The position numbers were made by a program, and so were the translations under genes. Below are positions 1,962 through 44,293 of a stretch of DNA of 44,756 nucleotides, one piece after another (the first letter of the stretch is position 1; the number at the start of each line of letters is the position of its first letter). Under the pieces are notes generated by a model. That model was not told where the DNA came from. It saw only the letters and a list, made by a program, of their open reading frames with translations, and ran no database searches. The stretch is from a virus: the IMG/VR virus record IMGVR_UViG_3300021233_000060, positions 1-44,756 of that record. One strand, given 5' to 3'.

Positions 1962-2117
1962 TGGAAAATTCAAGCCTTTATGTGAAGCTATTTTGTGGTG
2001 TTATAGGCGCTGAAACTAAAGAAAAGCTAAATGTCAAGTGTTATTTTCATTACTTTGATCACAAAATGTTACAGTTTATTGCAATGTTGTAACATTCAGT
2101 AACACAAATAGTGTAAT
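1962..2117. repeat. Diverged direct duplication, copy 2
   Basis: Copy 2 carries AAAATTCAAGCCTTTA (1965-1980), AAGCT (1985-1989), TGATCAC (2056-2062), AATGTTGTAACA (2083-2094) and GTGTAAT (2111-2117). It also has an inverted partner AATGTTAC (2065-2072) facing GTAACATT (2089-2096), so the TGTAACA word appears in both orientations here. Confidence 0.6.
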
Positions 2118-2174
2118 GAAATCAACGTCAAGTACTTTCTATGATCAACTTTTATTTCAATGCTCATTTTGTTG

Positions 2175-2202
2175 TTGACTTGGAAGCGAAAATCGTTAAT
2201 AC
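2175..2202 (+). promoter_or_regulatory. Candidate rightward promoter for the lysis/late arm
   Basis: TTGACT (2175-2180), a 16-base spacer and TAATAC (2197-2202) lie about 155 bases upstream of the first rightward gene. A TATACG six bases later is an alternative -10. The elements are weaker than the four TATAACTA promoters. Position at the start of the long rightward arm is the main support. Confidence 0.35.
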
Positions 2203-2359
2203 TATACGCGAGGGGTGAAAACTCTGGTCCTTGAGAGGGGATCAGGGGTGAGATACTTCCATGTTGAGCTTAAGCGAAACATACTAGCTAAAACTTTAAG
2301 TAACACTTCTCCTAGTTAGACTTAAAGATAGCTTAACTAAGAAAAGTGACACTAACACA

Positions 2360-2668
2360 ATGGCTAAACATAACACTACTCGTAGAGAAACATACACAAG
2401 TGACCGTGTACTAGAGAACTTCTACGCTGACCTCATTAAAGCTTACAACTCACGTAATCCTGAGACTATACTGAGACGCATTCACTTACCTCATAGTGAT
2501 GTGTTCTACACTCGTACTGCTCTCAATGCTCACTTCGGTGAAGAGTACACTTTGCAATACGTAGAGTGGTGCATGATGAAGGAAGGCTTACTTAGTGTAG
2601 ATGATTGCTTTGAAGGCAAGGAACGCATTAAGTGGAACGAATACAAAGGTGAGAAGCTATGCAAGTAA
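2360..2668 (+). CDS. Hypothetical protein
   Basis: The product has 102 residues and is the first gene of the rightward arm. It is soluble, charged and mostly helical, with no transmembrane segment or recognised motif (NFYADLIKAYNSRNPE near the N-terminus, EEYTLQYVEWCMMKEGLL in the middle). The 3' end overlaps the endolysin start by 10 bases, so the two are translationally coupled and the product may act with the lysis genes. No clear Shine-Dalgarno is seen before the ATG. The size, predicted helices and the YVEWCMMKEGLLS segment are loosely reminiscent of small DNA-binding proteins, but I cannot support that further. Confidence 0.75.
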   Translation: MAKHNTTRRETYTSDRVLENFYADLIKAYNSRNPETILRRIHLPHSDVFYTRTALNAHFGEEYTLQYVEWCMMKEGLLSVDDCFEGKERIKWNEYKGEKLCK

Positions 2669-3108
2669 TGCGTATCAGTAAAGCTGGTATTGACCACATT
2701 AAGTCCTATGAGAAGCTTAAGCTACAAGCTTACATGCCTACTAAGCATGATGTTCCTACTATTGGATATGGTCACACTAAGGGTGTCAAGCTAGGTACCA
2801 CAATTAGTGAAGCACAAGCTGAGGCCTTCCTTCGTGAAGACTTGCAGTGGGTTGAGACTTGTGTTAACAAATCTGTAACTGTTCCAATGACTCAATCACA
2901 ATATGATGGCTTGTGTGGCTTTGTGTTTAACTTGGGTGAAGGTAACTTCCGTAGTTCCACCATGCTTAAGCATATCAATAAGGGTAATTGGGAAGCTGCA
3001 GCTAAATCTATGCTACAGTGGAACAAACAACGTACAGATAAAGGTTTAGTCGTACTTAATGGCTTAACTAAACGTAGAGCCAAAGAAGCTAAAATGCTGC
3101 TTGCATAA
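2659..3108 (+). CDS. Endolysin, T4-lysozyme-like muramidase (GH24)
   Basis: This enzyme should cut the peptidoglycan glycan strand at the end of infection. Its 149 residues match the usual size of single-domain phage lysozymes. The family signature is visible: catalytic Glu18 (SYEKLKLQAY), then PTIGYGHTKG with Thr34. The middle acid of the usual Glu-Asp-Thr triad is not at its standard spacing; Asp31 is the nearest candidate, as in relatives that read DVPTIGYGHT. There is no N-terminal signal, so export depends on the holin at 3281. The start at 2659 is chosen because AGGTGAG sits about 6 bases upstream; an in-frame ATG at 2668 is the alternative. Confidence 0.93.
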   Translation: MQVMRISKAGIDHIKSYEKLKLQAYMPTKHDVPTIGYGHTKGVKLGTTISEAQAEAFLREDLQWVETCVNKSVTVPMTQSQYDGLCGFVFNLGEGNFRSSTMLKHINKGNWEAAAKSMLQWNKQRTDKGLVVLNGLTKRRAKEAKMLLA

Positions 3109-3124
3109 GTTCCTGCTCAGTAAC

Positions 3125-3144
3125 ATGTATCATACGTGATACAT
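3125..3144. other. Inverted repeat between endolysin and holin
   Basis: ATGTATCA (3125-3132) and TGATACAT (3137-3144) form a perfect 8-bp inverted repeat with a TACG centre, 17 bases after the endolysin stop. No T-run follows. It could be an operator or a weak hairpin that separates endolysin from holin transcription. Confidence 0.5.
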
Positions 3145-3241
3145 TAAATGAGTATATGTGCCTTATATGGAACATAAGCAGATCATTTGTATCCCTATAA
3201 TATGGCATCTGTAAATAGTTTGCAATGCTGTAACTTAGCAC

Positions 3242-3269
3242 TTGACATTTCGTACACTATACGTATAAC
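3242..3269 (+). promoter_or_regulatory. sigma70-type promoter upstream of holin
   Basis: Perfect TTGACA (3242-3247), a 16-base spacer and TATAAC (3264-3269), followed by TA. The first transcribed base would fall just before the holin ATG at 3281, giving a very short leader. The -10 word TATAACTA is shared with the promoters at 16852, 33971 and 42007. A TGTAACT word lies just upstream of the -35. Confidence 0.75.
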
Positions 3270-3280
3270 TAGGCATAATT

Positions 3281-3499
3281 ATGACACAGACACCTAAACG
3301 CAATAAATCGTGGTCACGAGAAGTAGCAGGAGTAATGCTCTTGGTGCTTCTTGCTCTCATTTGTACATTCCTCTACACCAACGCTGAGCCTTTCTTTCGT
3401 GTTGTAGAGTATATCACACCTTTTGTGTTCATCTTTGCTGGTGGTGCATTTGGTGTCAAAGCTGTGTTGCAGCAATCTGTAGATGGGCAAGGTAAGTAA
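3281..3499 (+). CDS. Holin
   Basis: The product has 72 residues and two predicted transmembrane segments: about residues 16-34 (VAGVMLLVLLALICTFLYT) and about 43-63 (VEYITPFVFIFAGGAFGVKAV). It starts with a basic N-terminus and ends in a short hydrophilic tail. Two membrane spans with a charged start fit a class II holin, which opens the inner membrane and releases the endolysin. The assignment rests on topology and on position between endolysin and spanins, not on a conserved sequence motif. A strong promoter immediately upstream suggests it can be expressed independently of the endolysin. Confidence 0.8.
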   Translation: MTQTPKRNKSWSREVAGVMLLVLLALICTFLYTNAEPFFRVVEYITPFVFIFAGGAFGVKAVLQQSVDGQGK

Positions 3500-3500
3500 T

Positions 3501-3755
3501 ATGATCAAACGAATTCTGAGTGGAATTACATTGGCGCTGGGCCTACTGCTTGGTGTCTTAGCTTACGGTAAAGCTAAACAAGTACAAGGTAAAGCTGCAG
3601 CCAAAGAAGAGCTTCACTTTGATGATATGAAGAATGCCTTGAGTATTCGTAAAGACGCAGAGGTTAAGCGTAATGAAATTGAAGACACTGTTTCTCGTCT
3701 GCCTATTGAGTCTGTCCATGATGGCTTGCGCTCCAAAGGTAAACTACGGGATTGA
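3501..3755 (+). CDS. i-spanin (Rz-like)
   Basis: The product has 84 residues: a basic start (MIKR), a single transmembrane helix (ILSGITLALGLLLGVLAYG), then a charged, helical periplasmic domain rich in Lys, Glu and Asp. This is the layout of Rz-type inner-membrane spanins, which join an outer-membrane lipoprotein to fuse the two membranes in the last step of lysis. ATG at 3501 is preferred to an upstream in-frame ATG at 3483 because AAGGT lies 8 bases before it and the longer form would overlap the holin. The partner o-spanin starts inside this gene in another frame. Confidence 0.82.
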   Translation: MIKRILSGITLALGLLLGVLAYGKAKQVQGKAAAKEELHFDDMKNALSIRKDAEVKRNEIEDTVSRLPIESVHDGLRSKGKLRD

Positions 3756-8466: not shown

Positions 8467-8841
8467 ATGGCACGTAATCTAACAGAACAACAACAGCTTT
8501 TCCTTGAGGTGCTATTTGATGGTGCTAATGGCGATGTAGTTGTAGCTAAACAAATGGCAGGGTACAGTGATTCAACGAGTACCTCATACATTGTGAATAC
8601 GCTTAAAGATGAGATTGCTGAGGCTACACGTAGCTACTTGGCACGTATTGCTCCCAAAGCTGCTATTTCTATGTCAGGGGCTTTAGATGACCCTACTACT
8701 CTTGGTCTTCGTGATAAGATGATTGCTGCTCGTGACATTCTTGATCGCACTGGCTTTGCTAAAACTGAGAAAGTTGATCTTGGTAGTTCCGCCATCTTCA
8801 TTCTGCCACCTAAGAATGCTGCAGACGATGAAGAGGATTGA
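8467..8841 (+). CDS. terS: Terminase small subunit
   Basis: The product has 124 residues. The N-terminal part (LTEQQQLFLEVLFDGANGD, VVVAKQMAGYSDSTSTSY) has the layout of the helix-turn-helix DNA-binding domain of small terminases; the middle (LGLRDKMIAARDILDRTG) matches the helical oligomerisation part, and the end is acidic. It recognises the packaging site and hands DNA to the large subunit. Position just before the large subunit supports this. The stop overlaps the start of the next gene. Confidence 0.8.
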   Translation: MARNLTEQQQLFLEVLFDGANGDVVVAKQMAGYSDSTSTSYIVNTLKDEIAEATRSYLARIAPKAAISMSGALDDPTTLGLRDKMIAARDILDRTGFAKTEKVDLGSSAIFILPPKNAADDEED

Positions 8842-9268
8842 GCGGTTAGAACGTGAAGACTTGGGCTTTTGGCAGCTACCGTTGCCAGAAGACCCTACTG
8901 CTAAGTATCGCTCAGAGTGGGAGAGCATTCCTAACTTAACATACAACAACCACATTCCATTTGGTTATGAAGTTGATGCTAATGATACGGAGTGGCTTAT
9001 ACCAATTAGTAAAGAGCTAGAGCTTTTAGAGCTTGCAAAAGATCACGTAAAGAGGTATAGTTATCGTGATGTAGCTGCTTGGTTATCAGCGCAAAGCGGT
9101 AGAACGATATCGCATACTGGATTGAAACGAAGGATTGAAGTTGAGCGAAAACGTAAAACAGTCGCTACCCTTAAACGCTATTACGCCAAAAAGCTTCAAA
9201 GGATCATCGAACAAATCGAAACCCTTGAGCACAGGCGTACAGGGGCGAAAAAGGGGTCGACCAACTAA
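8828..9268 (+). CDS. Hypothetical protein between terminase subunits
   Basis: The product has 146 residues when started at ATG 8828 (MKRIERLEREDLG), which overlaps the small terminase end by 14 bases; an in-frame start at 8723 would overlap far more. The C-terminal half is basic and helical (VAAWLSAQSGRTISHTGLKR, then RYYAKKLQRIIEQIE) and reads like a resolvase-type or terminase-type helix-turn-helix DNA-binding region followed by a coiled coil. Its last 128 bases overlap the proposed start of the large terminase. Possibly a packaging helper or second DNA-recognition protein; function unproven. Confidence 0.7.
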   Translation: MKRIERLEREDLGFWQLPLPEDPTAKYRSEWESIPNLTYNNHIPFGYEVDANDTEWLIPISKELELLELAKDHVKRYSYRDVAAWLSAQSGRTISHTGLKRRIEVERKRKTVATLKRYYAKKLQRIIEQIETLEHRRTGAKKGSTN

Positions 9269-9470
9269 GCAAGAAGTTGAAGAGCGTAAGAAAGCTGCTG
9301 AAAAAGAGGCTAAACTACGCTTTAACGTGACTGTTCCTGCTACTCCTGTGGCAGCTAAGTTTGATCTATATGACGCACAGAACGTTGTGTTTAAGCCAAA
9401 CGAAGGGCCACAAACTGAATTTCTGAGTGCTTCCGAGAGACAAGTTCTTTTCGGTGGTGCTGCTGGTGGT
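9141..9470 (+). CDS. terL: Terminase large subunit, exon 1
   Basis: This exon encodes the N-terminal 110 residues of the packaging ATPase. It ends inside the Walker A motif: FGGAAGG here, joined to GKSYAML in exon 2. A TTG start at 9141 is preferred because AAGGA lies 6 bases upstream; TTG 9225 is a shorter alternative and no ATG is available. The N-terminal extension contains GRKRGRPTK, an AT-hook-like DNA-binding word. Without splicing the frame hits a stop at 9503. The last six exon bases, GGTGGT, pair with GCCACC at 9488-9493 in the intron, which fixes the 5' splice site after 9470. Confidence 0.85.
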
Positions 9471-10316
9471 AAAGCAGATTCCTCCTATCGCCACCTTTTC
9501 TGAGTAATCAGATCAAAATAAACTTCGTGAACTGCTGGAAACTCTTTATTCTACTGTGCGCTACAACATAACTGGAAACGGTAAGTGTGAATGCTTGAAA
9601 AGCACAGAAGTTAGACAATCAGCATCCAAGCGCCGTATAGGTGAAGGTTCAGAGGCCATCCCGAAAGGGAGTAGGGGTAACACCCGAAGCGCGAAGCCCC
9701 AGCAATGGGTGAAGATATGGTCCAAGGTAAAGTAAAGGCCAGCGAAAGCTGAAGTACCAAGGGTAGAAATATGTATACACTATACAAGGCCACGTCACCT
9801 TCTGGAAAGACGTACATAGGAATAACTAATAACGTAAAGCGACGAATGAAGGAGCACAATAGTAGCCCTTACTCATTTGGAAATGCCTTACGCAAATACG
9901 GAAAAGATGCTTTTACATTTGAGTATGAGCGTTTTAATACTGTAGAAGAGGCGCTAAAAAGAGAAGCTGAGTTAGTTTCACTTGACACATTAGCCTCTGG
10001 TATGCTATACAACGAATCTGTTGGAGGCACGTTCAGTAACGTATTAAGGGACAATAATCCTATGCACAATCCAGAAGTACTTAGTAAGCATCCTAATCTT
10101 TTTAGCACAGACAATAATCCAATGAATAATCCTGAGATTAGAGCTAAAGCTAGTGAGTATCAAGATGCTACGAAGAAACGTATCAGTATTGAAGGTGTAG
10201 AGTATTTTGGAGTTAGAGAAGCTGCTAGAAAGTTAAACACGTATAGGCAACTAATCGTGTATAGGCTTAAGTCAAAACAGTTTCCTGATTGGTACTATGT
10301 CTAACACTTTACCTTG
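9471..10316 (+). ncRNA. Group I intron in terminase large subunit
   Basis: This 846-base intron splits the ATPase Walker A codons. Exon ends in T and the intron in G, as group I introns require. P1: exon GGUGGU with GCCACC (9488-9493), with the expected U-G wobble at the cut. P10: exon 2 GGUA with UAUC just 5' of that guide. Core elements match the known pattern: P-like GAACTGCTGGAAA (9527-9539), Q-like AATCAGCATCCAAGC (9617-9631), R-like GGTTCAGAGG (9646-9655) and S-like GAAGATATGGTCC (9711-9723). The homing gene lies after S, in the P9 region. It carries its own ribosome-site region upstream of 9771. Confidence 0.92.
9771..10304 (+). CDS. GIY-YIG homing endonuclease (intron-encoded)
   Basis: The product has 177 residues. 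The N-terminal GIY-YIG nuclease domain shows YTLYKATSPSG, TYIGITNN, then RRMKEH with the conserved Arg, FGNALRKYG, and a Glu in KREAELVSL. The C-terminal half has two NNPM.NPE words (NUMOD3-like) and a final IEGVEYFGVREAARKL segment of NUMOD1 type, which bind DNA. It would cut intronless terminase genes and drive intron spread. It lies wholly inside the intron, after the catalytic core, and ends 12 bases before the 3' splice site. Confidence 0.93.
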   Translation: MYTLYKATSPSGKTYIGITNNVKRRMKEHNSSPYSFGNALRKYGKDAFTFEYERFNTVEEALKREAELVSLDTLASGMLYNESVGGTFSNVLRDNNPMHNPEVLSKHPNLFSTDNNPMNNPEIRAKASEYQDATKKRISIEGVEYFGVREAARKLNTYRQLIVYRLKSKQFPDWYYV

Positions 10317-11612
10317 GGTAAGAGCTATGCTATGCTTGCTGACCCTCTGCGGGATATGAATAACCCTAACTTCTCTGGGTTGCTTGTTCGTCACACCACA
10401 GAGGAACTGCGAGAGCTTATCACTAAGTCTCAGGATTTGTACCCTAAAGCTATTCCGGGAATTGTTTGGAGTGAGCGAAAGCAACAGTGGACTACACCTC
10501 GTGGAGCACGTTTGTGGATGAGCTTTCTGGACAGAGAGACTGACGTTATGCGTTACCAAGGGCAGGCGTTTAACTGGATTGGCTTCGATGAATTGACGCA
10601 ATGGGCTACACCTTACGCATTCAACTATATGGGATCACGTCTTCGTACATCTGATCCAGCATTGCGTTTGTATATGCGTTGTACGTCAAACCCCGGTGGT
10701 CCCGGTCACGGCTGGGTTAAGAAGGGCTTCATTGATCCTGCACCGTACAATACTTCCTTCGCTGCCACTGACTTTGAAACGGGTGAAGAACTACGTTTCC
10801 CTAAAGGTCACACCAAAGAAGGTAAGGCTTTGTATAAGCGTAGGTTCATTCCTGCAACGCTATTTGATAACCCTTATCTGGCTTCTGATGGTGAGTATGA
10901 ATCTATGCTGCTGTCACTTCCCGAAGCCCAGCGCAGACAACTTCTGTACGGGGATTGGGATATTAGCGATGGTGCAGCGTTCACTGAGTTTAACAGGAAG
11001 ATACACGTAATTGAGCCTTTTGACATACCTCGTGATTGGATTCGCTTTAGGGCTGCTGACTATGGCTATGGTAGTAAAACTGCTGTTCTTTGGTTTGCTA
11101 TTGCGCCAGATGAGCAACTCATAGTTTATCGGGAACTTTACACGTCTAAAGTAACTGCTGTTGACTTGGCAGATATGATTAACGAAATTGAACGTAACGA
11201 ATCCATGCGCTACGGTGTGCTCGACTCTTCGTTGTGGCATAAACGGGGTGACACTGGACCATCACTAGCTGAGCAGATGATTATGAAGGGTTGCCGCTGG
11301 CGTCCGTCAGATCGAAGCAAAGGCTCTCGTGTAGCAGGTAAGAACGAGATTCACCGCCGCTTGCAGGTTGATCAGTACACAGGTGAACCTCGCTTGGTGT
11401 TCTTCAACACTTGTGTTAACATTATCTCTGAATTGCCTATTCTACCACTATCTCGCAACAATCCAGAAGACGTTGACACTAATGCTAACGACCACGGCTA
11501 CGATGCTCTTCGTTATGGCTGCATGAGTAGACCTCGCAGTGGCTTGTGGGACTATGATCCTACCACTTCAAGTAGCGGCTTTCAAGCTAGCGATTCCCTC
11601 TTTGGTTACTAA
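10317..11612 (+). CDS. terL: Terminase large subunit, exon 2
   Basis: This exon supplies residues 111-541 of the packaging motor. It opens with GKSYAMLADP, completing Walker A. Walker B is WIGFDELTQW (Asp201, Glu202 of the spliced protein). The C-terminal RNase H-like nuclease shows RAADYGYGSKTAV with its Asp, GVLDSSLWHKRG, and a final NDHGYDALRYG acid. The spliced length of about 541 residues is usual for podovirus terminases. The protein pumps DNA into the prohead through the portal encoded just downstream. A frame from TTG 10314 exists but would lack the P-loop and make no active enzyme alone. Confidence 0.95.
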   Translation, partial: GKSYAMLADPLRDMNNPNFSGLLVRHTTEELRELITKSQDLYPKAIPGIVWSERKQQWTTPRGARLWMSFLDRETDVMRYQGQAFNWIGFDELTQWATPYAFNYMGSRLRTSDPALRLYMRCTSNPGGPGHGWVKKGFIDPAPYNTSFAATDFETGEELRFPKGHTKEGKALYKRRFIPATLFDNPYLASDGEYESMLLSLPEAQRRQLLYGDWDISDGAAFTEFNRKIHVIEPFDIPRDWIRFRAADYGYGSKTAVLWFAIAPDEQLIVYRELYTSKVTAVDLADMINEIERNESMRYGVLDSSLWHKRGDTGPSLAEQMIMKGCRWRPSDRSKGSRVAGKNEIHRRLQVDQYTGEPRLVFFNTCVNIISELPILPLSRNNPEDVDTNANDHGYDALRYGCMSRPRSGLWDYDPTTSSSGFQASDSLFGY

Positions 11613-33757: not shown

Positions 33758-33831
33758 TGGCGAAGGAACTTGGAATCGAACCAAGGACTGCAGTTTTGGA
33801 GACTGCCGTGTTACCACTACACTAAACCAAC
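33758..33831 (-). tRNA. tRNA-Trp (CCA), acceptor stem abnormal
   Basis: On the minus strand the D arm (GTGT/ACAC), anticodon arm (GCAGT-CTCCAAA-ACTGC, anticodon CCA), T arm (CTTGG-TTCGATT-CCAAG) and 3' G-CCA are all well formed. The acceptor stem is not: 5' GTTGGTT faces 3' TTCCTTC, giving three G-C pairs and four T-T mismatches. It follows the tRNA-Thr by one base. It may be decayed, edited, or used differently. Confidence 0.75.
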
Positions 33832-33832
33832 G

Positions 33833-33907
33833 TGGTGCTCCTACTTAGAGTTGAACTAAGTTCTACGGGTTACAAATCCGTTGCATCACCACCAATGCTT
33901 TAGGAGC
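33833..33907 (-). tRNA. tRNA-Thr (TGT)
   Basis: On the minus strand the acceptor GCTCCTA pairs fully with TAGGAGC, followed by A and an encoded CCA. D arm GCAT/ATGC; anticodon loop TTTGTAA gives anticodon TGT, reading ACA; T arm CTTAG-TTCAACT-CTAAG is perfect. One A-C mismatch closes the anticodon loop. It is transcribed from the promoter at 33971-33999. ACA is a common codon in this AT-rich phage. Confidence 0.92.
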
Positions 33908-42053: not shown

Positions 42054-44117
42054 TCACAGTTTCTTCACGTCTTTCTGGTTCAGCCAATTGTCACCAATCT
42101 TTGCTTCTAGCAGAAGAGGCACGTTCATGTCAATACCAAAAGCGTTCTTGATAATGTCATGCAGATCAGCGTTCATGCCATCAATAAGAGCAATCATGCG
42201 GTCAATCTCGTCGGGGTGTACATCGAACACAATGGAGTCATGCACAGTGTTGACAAGCAGAGACTTGAAGTTACCCTCTCGTAGCCGCCGATCAATCTCA
42301 ATAAGCACAACTGGAACAATGTCACCTGTAGCGAAACCTTGCACCGGATAATTCTTGATCCTAGTGAAGTTGGTTACGCTGCCATTCTTACGCCGTACAG
42401 TGTTGGGGAAAGCATATTGCCTGCCACTTGGAATGGTGATCTTTTCAAACCTAACAGCTTCATCACCAAGCTTCTTATGCCAAGCAGCAATGCCAACATA
42501 CTTCTCAATGAAGTGGTGGTAGTAAGCAGCTTGAGCAACCGTTCTACCGTGTCCCGTAGCGCCATACAGAGGTGCGAACGTGTGGGCTTTGGCATTCTGT
42601 CGTGTGGTTTCCTCTCCTGCATCTGTAATAACCTTTGCTGTGTAACTGTGAACGTCGAAGCCTGTACGCACTTCTTCCATAGCCAATTCGTCTTGTGCCA
42701 AGTAAGCAGCAACACGAAACTCTAGCTGTGCGAAGTCAGCTTCCATAACCTTGCCGCCTTTGAAGCGTGACACGAAAGCTTTCTTAACAGGGAATGTACC
42801 GCCCCGTGGCATGTTCTGCATATTAGGGTTACGGCCACTAAAGCGACCCGTTGCAGTGATATGTTGTGTCAGACCTACGTGTAGCAGCCCATCGGCTTTA
42901 GTGTAAGCTTCAATGCCACCAACGAAACTAGAGAGGTAGCTAGACACAGCACTCATGCGTTGTAGATCAAGCAGAAACTGTTCCGCTTCATCCATCTTGT
43001 TTTGCTTAGCCACAACGATTAGCGTAGACAGATTGTCTTTAGCTGTAGAGAAACCATTAGCTGAAACCCAATCTTTACTTGGTGCTGAGAAGCGAAGACC
43101 AGCTAATTCTTTTGTGTTACGAAGTAGGAAGCCATTTGCATCACACTCTTTACACTTGTTAGCTTTAGCGTATGGTTGCCCATTGGCTTTGGTCTTGTGT
43201 ACGTACTTCCTGCCTTCACACACAGGACACTGATACGCTACAGTCTTGAACAGAGGCTTTGTGTTAGCTTTAACTGCAGCCTTGAATTCAGCATCTGTCT
43301 TAGTGTGTTCAAATAGTTGCACCCACTCTTTCTTATTATTCAATGCACAGCTAAACACAACTTGAGACATTTGCTCAGGGCTATTGAGGTTAACAGGAGT
43401 ATCACCCATAAGTATCCGCACTTGCTTATACAGACGTTCTTCAATCTGTGCTAGCTCAGTCTCAAACTCAAGCTTAACTTCTGCCAATGCGTCACTATCA
43501 ACTGCAAATCCGTTACAATACATTCGTGTCAACACGACACATGTTTGCATAGTTGTGTTACGCACAGGAATAAGTGACTTGGAGTATTCTCTGTTGTAGT
43601 CTTTTAGCTGCGCTAGGTATAGCTCTCTAGTGGTACCAAGGTCAAAGCTAAGGTACTCTGTAAGCTCTGTTAGTGGCATGTTTCTAGTGGTACCACCAGC
43701 ATTGAAGTGAGCCTTAAGTGTATCCTGTTTCTGCACGGGTAGCTTACGACGAATAGCACAAGCTTCCAGTGACAGTGGTTCGTCGAGGCCACGTAGTAGC
43801 AGATATTCTCCAAGCATTGTGTCGTACACAGGGCCGTCATACTTGAAGCCACTTTCCCACAGCCACATCAAGTCATGGTTTAGGTTGTGACCAATGAGCA
43901 GCGTACACTTATCCAGTGCAGCTTGGATACGCTTGTGGTTAGCTCCTGTGGTATCTTGTGCCTCTTCGTGGTCAAATGGAAGCATCAACTTCCTAGCATC
44001 ATCTACACGTTGCATACCAACCATAGTCAGAGTGTTAGCTGCTTCAAATGGATCAAGGTGCAGCTTGTCGTGGTGTGTAGTGGTACTATTCTCAACGTCT
44101 AGGATGTATTCGGTCAT
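42054..44117 (-). CDS. DNA polymerase, family A with proofreading domain
   Basis: The product has 687 residues, near the T7 length of 704. Exonuclease motif I is Asp7-x-Glu9 (LDVEN). Polymerase motif A is ADFAQLEFRVAAYL (Asp461), motif B RQNAKAHTFAPLYG (506-519), motif C VHDSIVFDVH. Where T7 polymerase has its thioredoxin-binding loop, this protein has a zinc-ribbon-like insert (Cys297, 300, 322, 325). ATG 44117 has AAGGAG 5 bases upstream; a longer frame to 44141 is less likely. Confidence 0.95.
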   Translation of the reverse strand: MTEYILDVENSTTTHHDKLHLDPFEAANTLTMVGMQRVDDARKLMLPFDHEEAQDTTGANHKRIQAALDKCTLLIGHNLNHDLMWLWESGFKYDGPVYDTMLGEYLLLRGLDEPLSLEACAIRRKLPVQKQDTLKAHFNAGGTTRNMPLTELTEYLSFDLGTTRELYLAQLKDYNREYSKSLIPVRNTTMQTCVVLTRMYCNGFAVDSDALAEVKLEFETELAQIEERLYKQVRILMGDTPVNLNSPEQMSQVVFSCALNNKKEWVQLFEHTKTDAEFKAAVKANTKPLFKTVAYQCPVCEGRKYVHKTKANGQPYAKANKCKECDANGFLLRNTKELAGLRFSAPSKDWVSANGFSTAKDNLSTLIVVAKQNKMDEAEQFLLDLQRMSAVSSYLSSFVGGIEAYTKADGLLHVGLTQHITATGRFSGRNPNMQNMPRGGTFPVKKAFVSRFKGGKVMEADFAQLEFRVAAYLAQDELAMEEVRTGFDVHSYTAKVITDAGEETTRQNAKAHTFAPLYGATGHGRTVAQAAYYHHFIEKYVGIAAWHKKLGDEAVRFEKITIPSGRQYAFPNTVRRKNGSVTNFTRIKNYPVQGFATGDIVPVVLIEIDRRLREGNFKSLLVNTVHDSIVFDVHPDEIDRMIALIDGMNADLHDIIKNAFGIDMNVPLLLEAKIGDNWLNQKDVKKL

Positions 44118-44119
44118 TG

Positions 44120-44293
44120 CTACTCCTTTATTTCTCCGCACATAAGAGATGCTTGATTAGGACGCCTAGCTAAAGATGTACCTGTTTTACCACATTTACT
44201 GCATGTAAGTTTATACAAATCATCTTCACGCCACACTCTACTCTCTAGCTCTTCTAACTCAATATGTTCTTCGTCGCCTTTACACCACTTCAT
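44120..44293 (-). CDS. Small zinc-ribbon-like protein
   Basis: The product has 57 residues. An acidic helix (DEEHIELEELESRVWREDDL) is followed by KLTCSKCGKTGTSLARRP with a CxxC pair; two more cysteines (Cys4 and one in LMCGEIKE) could complete a zinc site. It ends two bases before the polymerase start, with that gene's ribosome site inside its last codons. Function unknown; perhaps a replication accessory. Confidence 0.68.
   Translation of the reverse strand: MKWCKGDEEHIELEELESRVWREDDLYKLTCSKCGKTGTSLARRPNQASLMCGEIKE

Follow-up and report, generated by a model that had tools for sequence, protein, structure and literature searches.

The Walker A motif, or P-loop, of a phage terminase large subunit (TerL) is interrupted between GGAAGG and GKS by an 846-nt group IA intron that contains an ORF for an I-TevI-like GIY-YIG endonuclease (Table 1). 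The gene lies in IMG/VR record IMGVR_UViG_3300021233_000060, positions 1 to 44,756 of which are called the window here. We consider this element, with a probability of about 0.93, to be a mobile group IA intron with a homing endonuclease gene (HEG) inserted in the TerL P-loop, and we establish its anatomy, its covariation-based splice sites, the recurrence of its site and its patchy spread. An initial annotation of this DNA had proposed that a group I intron splits the TerL Walker A motif, which is supported by both comparative structure and intron-free relatives; it did not mention an upstream copy of GGTGGT, the endonuclease ORF or the long covarying helix listed as extended P9.0 in Table 1.

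Anatomy of the interrupted terL gene

Joining position 9470 to 10317 yields a single open frame, VLFGGAAGGGKSYAML, which reads VLFGGAAGG/GKSYAML across the junction. The join restores one open frame with GGAAGGGKS, and the junctions first assigned to 9470/9471 and 10316/10317 are correct. The spliced product has a Walker A motif and matches the terminase large subunit. Because an in-frame stop lies 10 codons inside the intron, it follows from the anatomy that inexact intron loss would be expected to kill packaging and that a failure to splice would block virion production. An intein was rejected since the unspliced frame ends after these 10 codons. The window is one metagenome contig, as would be expected of an assembly artefact, but it is next to impossible that an artefact, a broken terL or an intein accounts for this arrangement, given that 32 further contigs share it, as do two cultured phages, that both TerL exons are open, and that the unspliced frame terminates so early.

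Table 1. Coordinates of the TerL exons, the intron and its elements in the window, and of the intron of contig L153
Feature	Position	Strand	Remarks
TerL 5' exon	9126..9470	+	Open frame ending in FGGAAGG; aligns to N-terminal part of intron-free TerLs
TerL 5' exon start			Start codon uncertain: ATG absent, TTG first seen at 9135
Upstream GGTGGT	9453..9458	+	Second in-frame copy; may act as a cryptic 5' splice site, giving FGG-GKS
P1 exon strand GGTGGT	9465..9470	+	U9470 in U.G pair at 5' splice site
Group IA intron	9471..10316	+	846 nt; final base G10316
Proposed P10 strand UAUC	9486..9489	+	Pairs with exon GGUA 10317-10320; weak family support
Internal guide sequence GCCACC (P1)	9490..9495	+	Covaries with exon wobble base, three states
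P2 hairpin, GUAA loop	9499..9512	+	Both-side changes in 5/5 pairs
P3 5' strand	9523..9529	+	Partner 9690-9696; both-side changes in 5/7 pairs
P4 5' strand	9533..9537	+	Partner 9620-9624; 98.3% of cells paired
P7 5' strand GGCCA	9654..9658	+	Guanosine-binding helix; partner 9718-9722; 100% paired
P7.1 and P7.2 hairpins	9659..9685	+	Subgroup IA type
Extended P9.0 helix, 5' strand	9724..9732	+	Directly after P7
GIY-YIG HEG	9771..10304	+	177 aa; I-TevI-like DNA-binding domain
Extended P9.0 helix, 3' strand	10307..10315	+	Adjoins terminal G10316
TerL 3' exon	10317..11612	+	Starts GKSYAML; PHROG terminase large subunit 4.2e-45
L153 P-loop intron	2064-3529		1,466 nt, two endonuclease ORFs
L153 intron ORF, LAGLIDADG	2194-2931
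L153 intron ORF, GIY-YIG	3001-3519

The intron contains the conserved P3, P4, P6, P7 and P8 helices with the P3/P7 pseudoknot, and is assigned to subgroup IA because P7.1 and P7.2 are present. In an alignment of 23 introns covering 44 pairs in P1-P8, 97.2% of cells are paired and 155 both-side changes are counted versus 43.5 after shuffling (none of 500 shuffles as good); sliding the partners by 1-3 columns lowers the pairing to 34-46%. In 10 of the 23 introns a C-G pair of P7 is replaced by U-A, while P7.1 and P7.2, located between P7 and P3', are 96.7% and 94.2% paired, both with both-side changes. The covariance-model search recommended in the initial annotation returned a match of Rfam RF00028 at 9449-9732 (39.3 bits, E 3.5e-8). 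This is less than the gathering score of 50, and a default scan therefore misses the intron of the window. Introns of its relatives score 51.7-67.2 bits.

Splice sites

Over 26 introns, 155 of 156 P1 pairs are kept, and none of 10,000 shuffles is as good. The guide sequence and the exon covary, GGT occurring with GCCACC or GCTACC, GGA with GCCTCC, GGG with GCCCCC or GCTCCC, and GGAAGT with GCTTCC. The final exon codon is GGT in all introns but that of L153 (AGT), the U.G pair at the 5' splice site is found in 23/23 aligned introns, and the terminal G in 28/28. The GGTGGT/GCCACC pairing first proposed does exist, but its guide is at 9490-9495, two bases above the 9488-9493 given for it. On the 3' side, the P9.0 helix (9-11 bp) forms 256 of 275 pairs in 25 introns versus a shuffled mean of 175, a value equalled in 0 of 10,000 shuffles. 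This helix spans the loop containing the endonuclease ORF, covaries strongly, ends just before the terminal G and fixes the 3' splice site. The P10 pairing of GGTA with TATC, also part of the earlier proposal, is present in the window as four pairs, one of them G.U, but across the family it is only slightly better than with shuffled partners (103 vs 92.4; 343 of 10,000 shuffles as good).

Choosing the 5' site required comparison with relatives, which is the only reason why the downstream GGTGGT was retained. The upstream copy, 12 nt away, can pair with the guide sequence just as perfectly, and it is the copy selected by Rfam and by the lowest-energy fold; single-sequence folding mis-chooses P1 in the window. 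Were position 9458 the true or a frequent 5' site, the product would be FGG-GKS, a TerL minus four P-loop residues, perhaps a poison or a regulatory form. This reading is in line with the perfect pairing of GCCACC with both copies, with the choice made by Rfam and the energy fold, and with a Rhizobium phage intron truly located at the upstream position, but we regard it as very improbable: in most relatives perfect pairing occurs only at the downstream copy, and the four residues are present in every intron-free relative sampled.

Recurrence and patchy spread of the intron

DNA patterns of the ribozyme core combined with an HEG profile revealed the family to which the intron belongs. Among the 32 further IMG/VR contigs carrying a TerL P-loop intron, one is nearly identical to the window, and the intron sits at the exact same boundary in 31 and 3 nt upstream in the remaining one (L154). 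The motif is struck in HMO-2011-type TerLs, in those of Rhizobium phages and in two far TerLs (L153 and L154), which are only remotely like that of the window and are confirmed as TerL by Pfam. The group of the window's phage, which is marine-type, comprises Puniceispirillum phage HMO-2011 and Roseobacter CRP phages. The TerL 3' exon finds 100% coverage in these phages, and the TerLs of the nearest cultured members are ~70-75% identical to that of the window; CRP-2, the member examined in detail, is intron-free, unlike the window.

The P-loop motif is uninterrupted in 157 of 160 sampled TerL relatives, with an intron in two and one unresolved. Alignment of the spliced TerL to intron-free relatives, another check set by the initial annotation, bore out the junction: the 80 loci nearest to the window, retrieved with the 3' exon alone and hence blind to introns, all read GG[A/S]AGGGKS without interruption, and 59 of the 80 intron-free relatives have GGT as the codon corresponding to the last one of the 5' exon. 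In a second TerL clade, 77 of 80 P-loops are uninterrupted, two contain the intron (one being the query itself) and one is unresolved. The intron is accordingly rare, at ~1-2% of the sampled relatives (0/80 and 2/80). This low frequency, together with near-identical phages that lack the intron, makes it very unlikely that the element has been domesticated as a switch to delay or tune packaging through control of TerL splicing. In favour of such a switch, TerL is a late, essential protein, and the stop codon of the endonuclease ORF lies right next to the 3' strand of P9.0, so that translation could affect splicing.

When mapped on the TerL tree, presence of the intron requires 8 changes, at least 7 of which are forced by well-supported branches, and HEG and TerL identities are nearly uncorrelated (r=0.14). 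The presence/absence polymorphism at a single site is that of a mobile intron. Several copies are reduced in size (443 nt in L101, 410 nt in L113, 523 nt in L199); HEG remnants are seen in L101 and L113, and such shortened or HEG-less copies are an expected stage of decay. A single contig (L200 and L148; IMGVR_3300020045_001482) combines an intron-bearing TerL with an opposite-strand TerL copy; this second copy is 94% identical over 1,245 nt, possibly through chimeric assembly.

Introns of cultured Rhizobium phages

The cultured carriers are RHph_N3_13 (MN988507.1; L083) and RHph_I3_11 (MN988510.1; L290). In both GenBank records the intron is unannotated, the 5' exon is listed as a hypothetical protein of its own, and TerL is annotated as an ORF beginning downstream of the P-loop. 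A practical consequence of this annotation fault is that at least two phage genomes in GenBank give TerL, which is a standard marker for phages, with the ATP-binding loop missing. The RHph_N3_13 intron is 222 nt long, lacks an endonuclease and lies at the upstream position, GG/SAGGGKT, as revealed by the near-identical, intron-free phage RHph_N3_19, whose 3' exon is 98% identical to that of the carrier. Judging from such sequences, exact losses or never-invaded alleles exist, RHph_N3_19 being an example. The closest full-length ribozyme core to this intron, at 88%, is that of L150 (a higher 10-base match there is spurious), which belongs to a sister TerL and occupies the downstream position. 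The intron has therefore occupied two places in the P-loop, 12 nt apart.

Endonuclease and proposed mechanism of mobility

The HEG product of the window matches PF01541 (2.4e-10) and PF20987 (3e-7), both above cut-off, and the HEG family profile matches PDB 1i3j (1.3e-8); an AlphaFold model of the endonuclease was poor (pLDDT 64.5) and was set aside. Most intron copies have an intact HEG whose product combines a GIY-YIG domain with the DNA-binding domain of I-TevI. Full-length relatives of the HEG with at least 44% identity number 25, and every one of them is located at the TerL P-loop site, two in very distant TerLs. Since a search of 84,980 bacterial and archaeal species genomes gave one weak partial match only, no cellular reservoir was found among them.

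From these features we infer splicing in infected cells, DNA cutting and homing as follows. The intron RNA would fold around P3-P8, its guide GCCACC pairing with the exon codons GGT GGT, and splicing between U9470 and G10317, with G10316 as the terminal G, would restore GGAAGGGKS. The long P9.0 helix would close the loop that carries the endonuclease ORF. Cleavage of terL alleles without the intron, at the codons of the P-loop, is the most likely action of the GIY-YIG protein, and repair of the cut gene would then copy the intron in. Maintenance and spread mainly by reverse splicing through the 6-nt guide, the endonuclease being incidental, would explain why the guide sequence matches the exon in every case, why HEG-less copies persist (L083, L101, L113, L199) and why the intron of L083 lies 12 nt away, at the other GGTGGT, and that of L154 is displaced by 3 nt. 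We nevertheless find this route improbable, as most copies retain an intact HEG, no full-length version of which was found at any other site, and HEG lineages do not travel together with TerL.

A related intron in a helicase gene

Positions 8527-9506 of a 131-kb viral contig (L204) contain a ribozyme of the family consensus with a NUMOD4 ORF. This ribozyme splits the Walker A motif of a Dda/RecD-like helicase (GAAGC/GKS) at the same codon boundary as in TerL. The exon GGATGT pairs with the guide GCATCC, 20 of 24 flanking bases match the joined exons of the window, and the spliced protein aligns in one piece to phage helicases over 97-99% of its length. In a ribozyme-core tree of only 64 columns with no well-supported branch, its nearest cores are TerL P-loop introns; it was found with a TerL-derived pattern, and the tree is therefore not decisive on origin. 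That an intron lineage specialised on P-loop-coding DNA jumps between non-homologous NTPase genes is a tentative idea, which we think is probably incorrect.

Relation to known systems

The intron resembles the T4 td intron and its endonuclease I-TevI in having P7.1/P7.2, U.G at the 5' site, a terminal G, and a GIY-YIG protein with an I-TevI-type DNA-binding domain. It differs from the T4 td intron, whose ORF is located in P6, in that its own ORF is placed at the 3' end, within the loop of P9.0, and in its target, the TerL P-loop instead of thymidylate synthase. Group I introns are known in terL of Lactobacillus LL-H, Vequintavirus RudolfGeigy and Av-05, Kayvirus (I-MsaI) and Bastillevirinae SIOphi, and splicing of SIOphi TerL has been demonstrated (PMC5618024, PMC11878797). 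Unlike in the window, the P-loop is uninterrupted in the LL-H and RudolfGeigy genes that we read, where introns lie downstream; the RudolfGeigy TerL annotation consists of three joined pieces. Group I introns in TerL that lie outside the P-loop were also observed in L109, L115 and L131, apparently near Walker B in the first two. Mycobacteriophage TerL inteins are found near ATPase motifs and cluster in the ATPase domain (PMC5050341); like the window intron, they are selfish elements with an endonuclease aimed at that domain, and they act by protein splicing, whereas RNA splicing is predicted here.

The freely accessible literature searched contained no description of a TerL P-loop interrupted by a group I intron, and the lineage is apparently an undescribed, well-supported one of a known kind. 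That homing into active-site codons guarantees a target in relatives, as initially argued, fits our data, but is established theory and not a new principle; reviews already describe a preference of homing endonucleases for codons that specify critical residues (PMC3984707, PMC3943268). The lineage is a clear example from nature of a probable homing intron that occupies those codons of a phage motor which tolerate the least change. Target choice, site sliding and loss become testable through its many parallel insertions, the near twins that lack an intron, the copies at shifted positions and the HEG remnants.

Elsewhere in the window, a family A DNA polymerase gene (42054-44141, minus strand) contains a weak DnaJ CXXCXGXG match; an unusual domain structure has been reported for HMO-2011-type polymerases (PMC10580990). 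A second tRNA (33761-33831, minus strand), detected by Rfam (49 bits) and not by ARAGORN, adjoins tRNA-Thr at 33833-33907.
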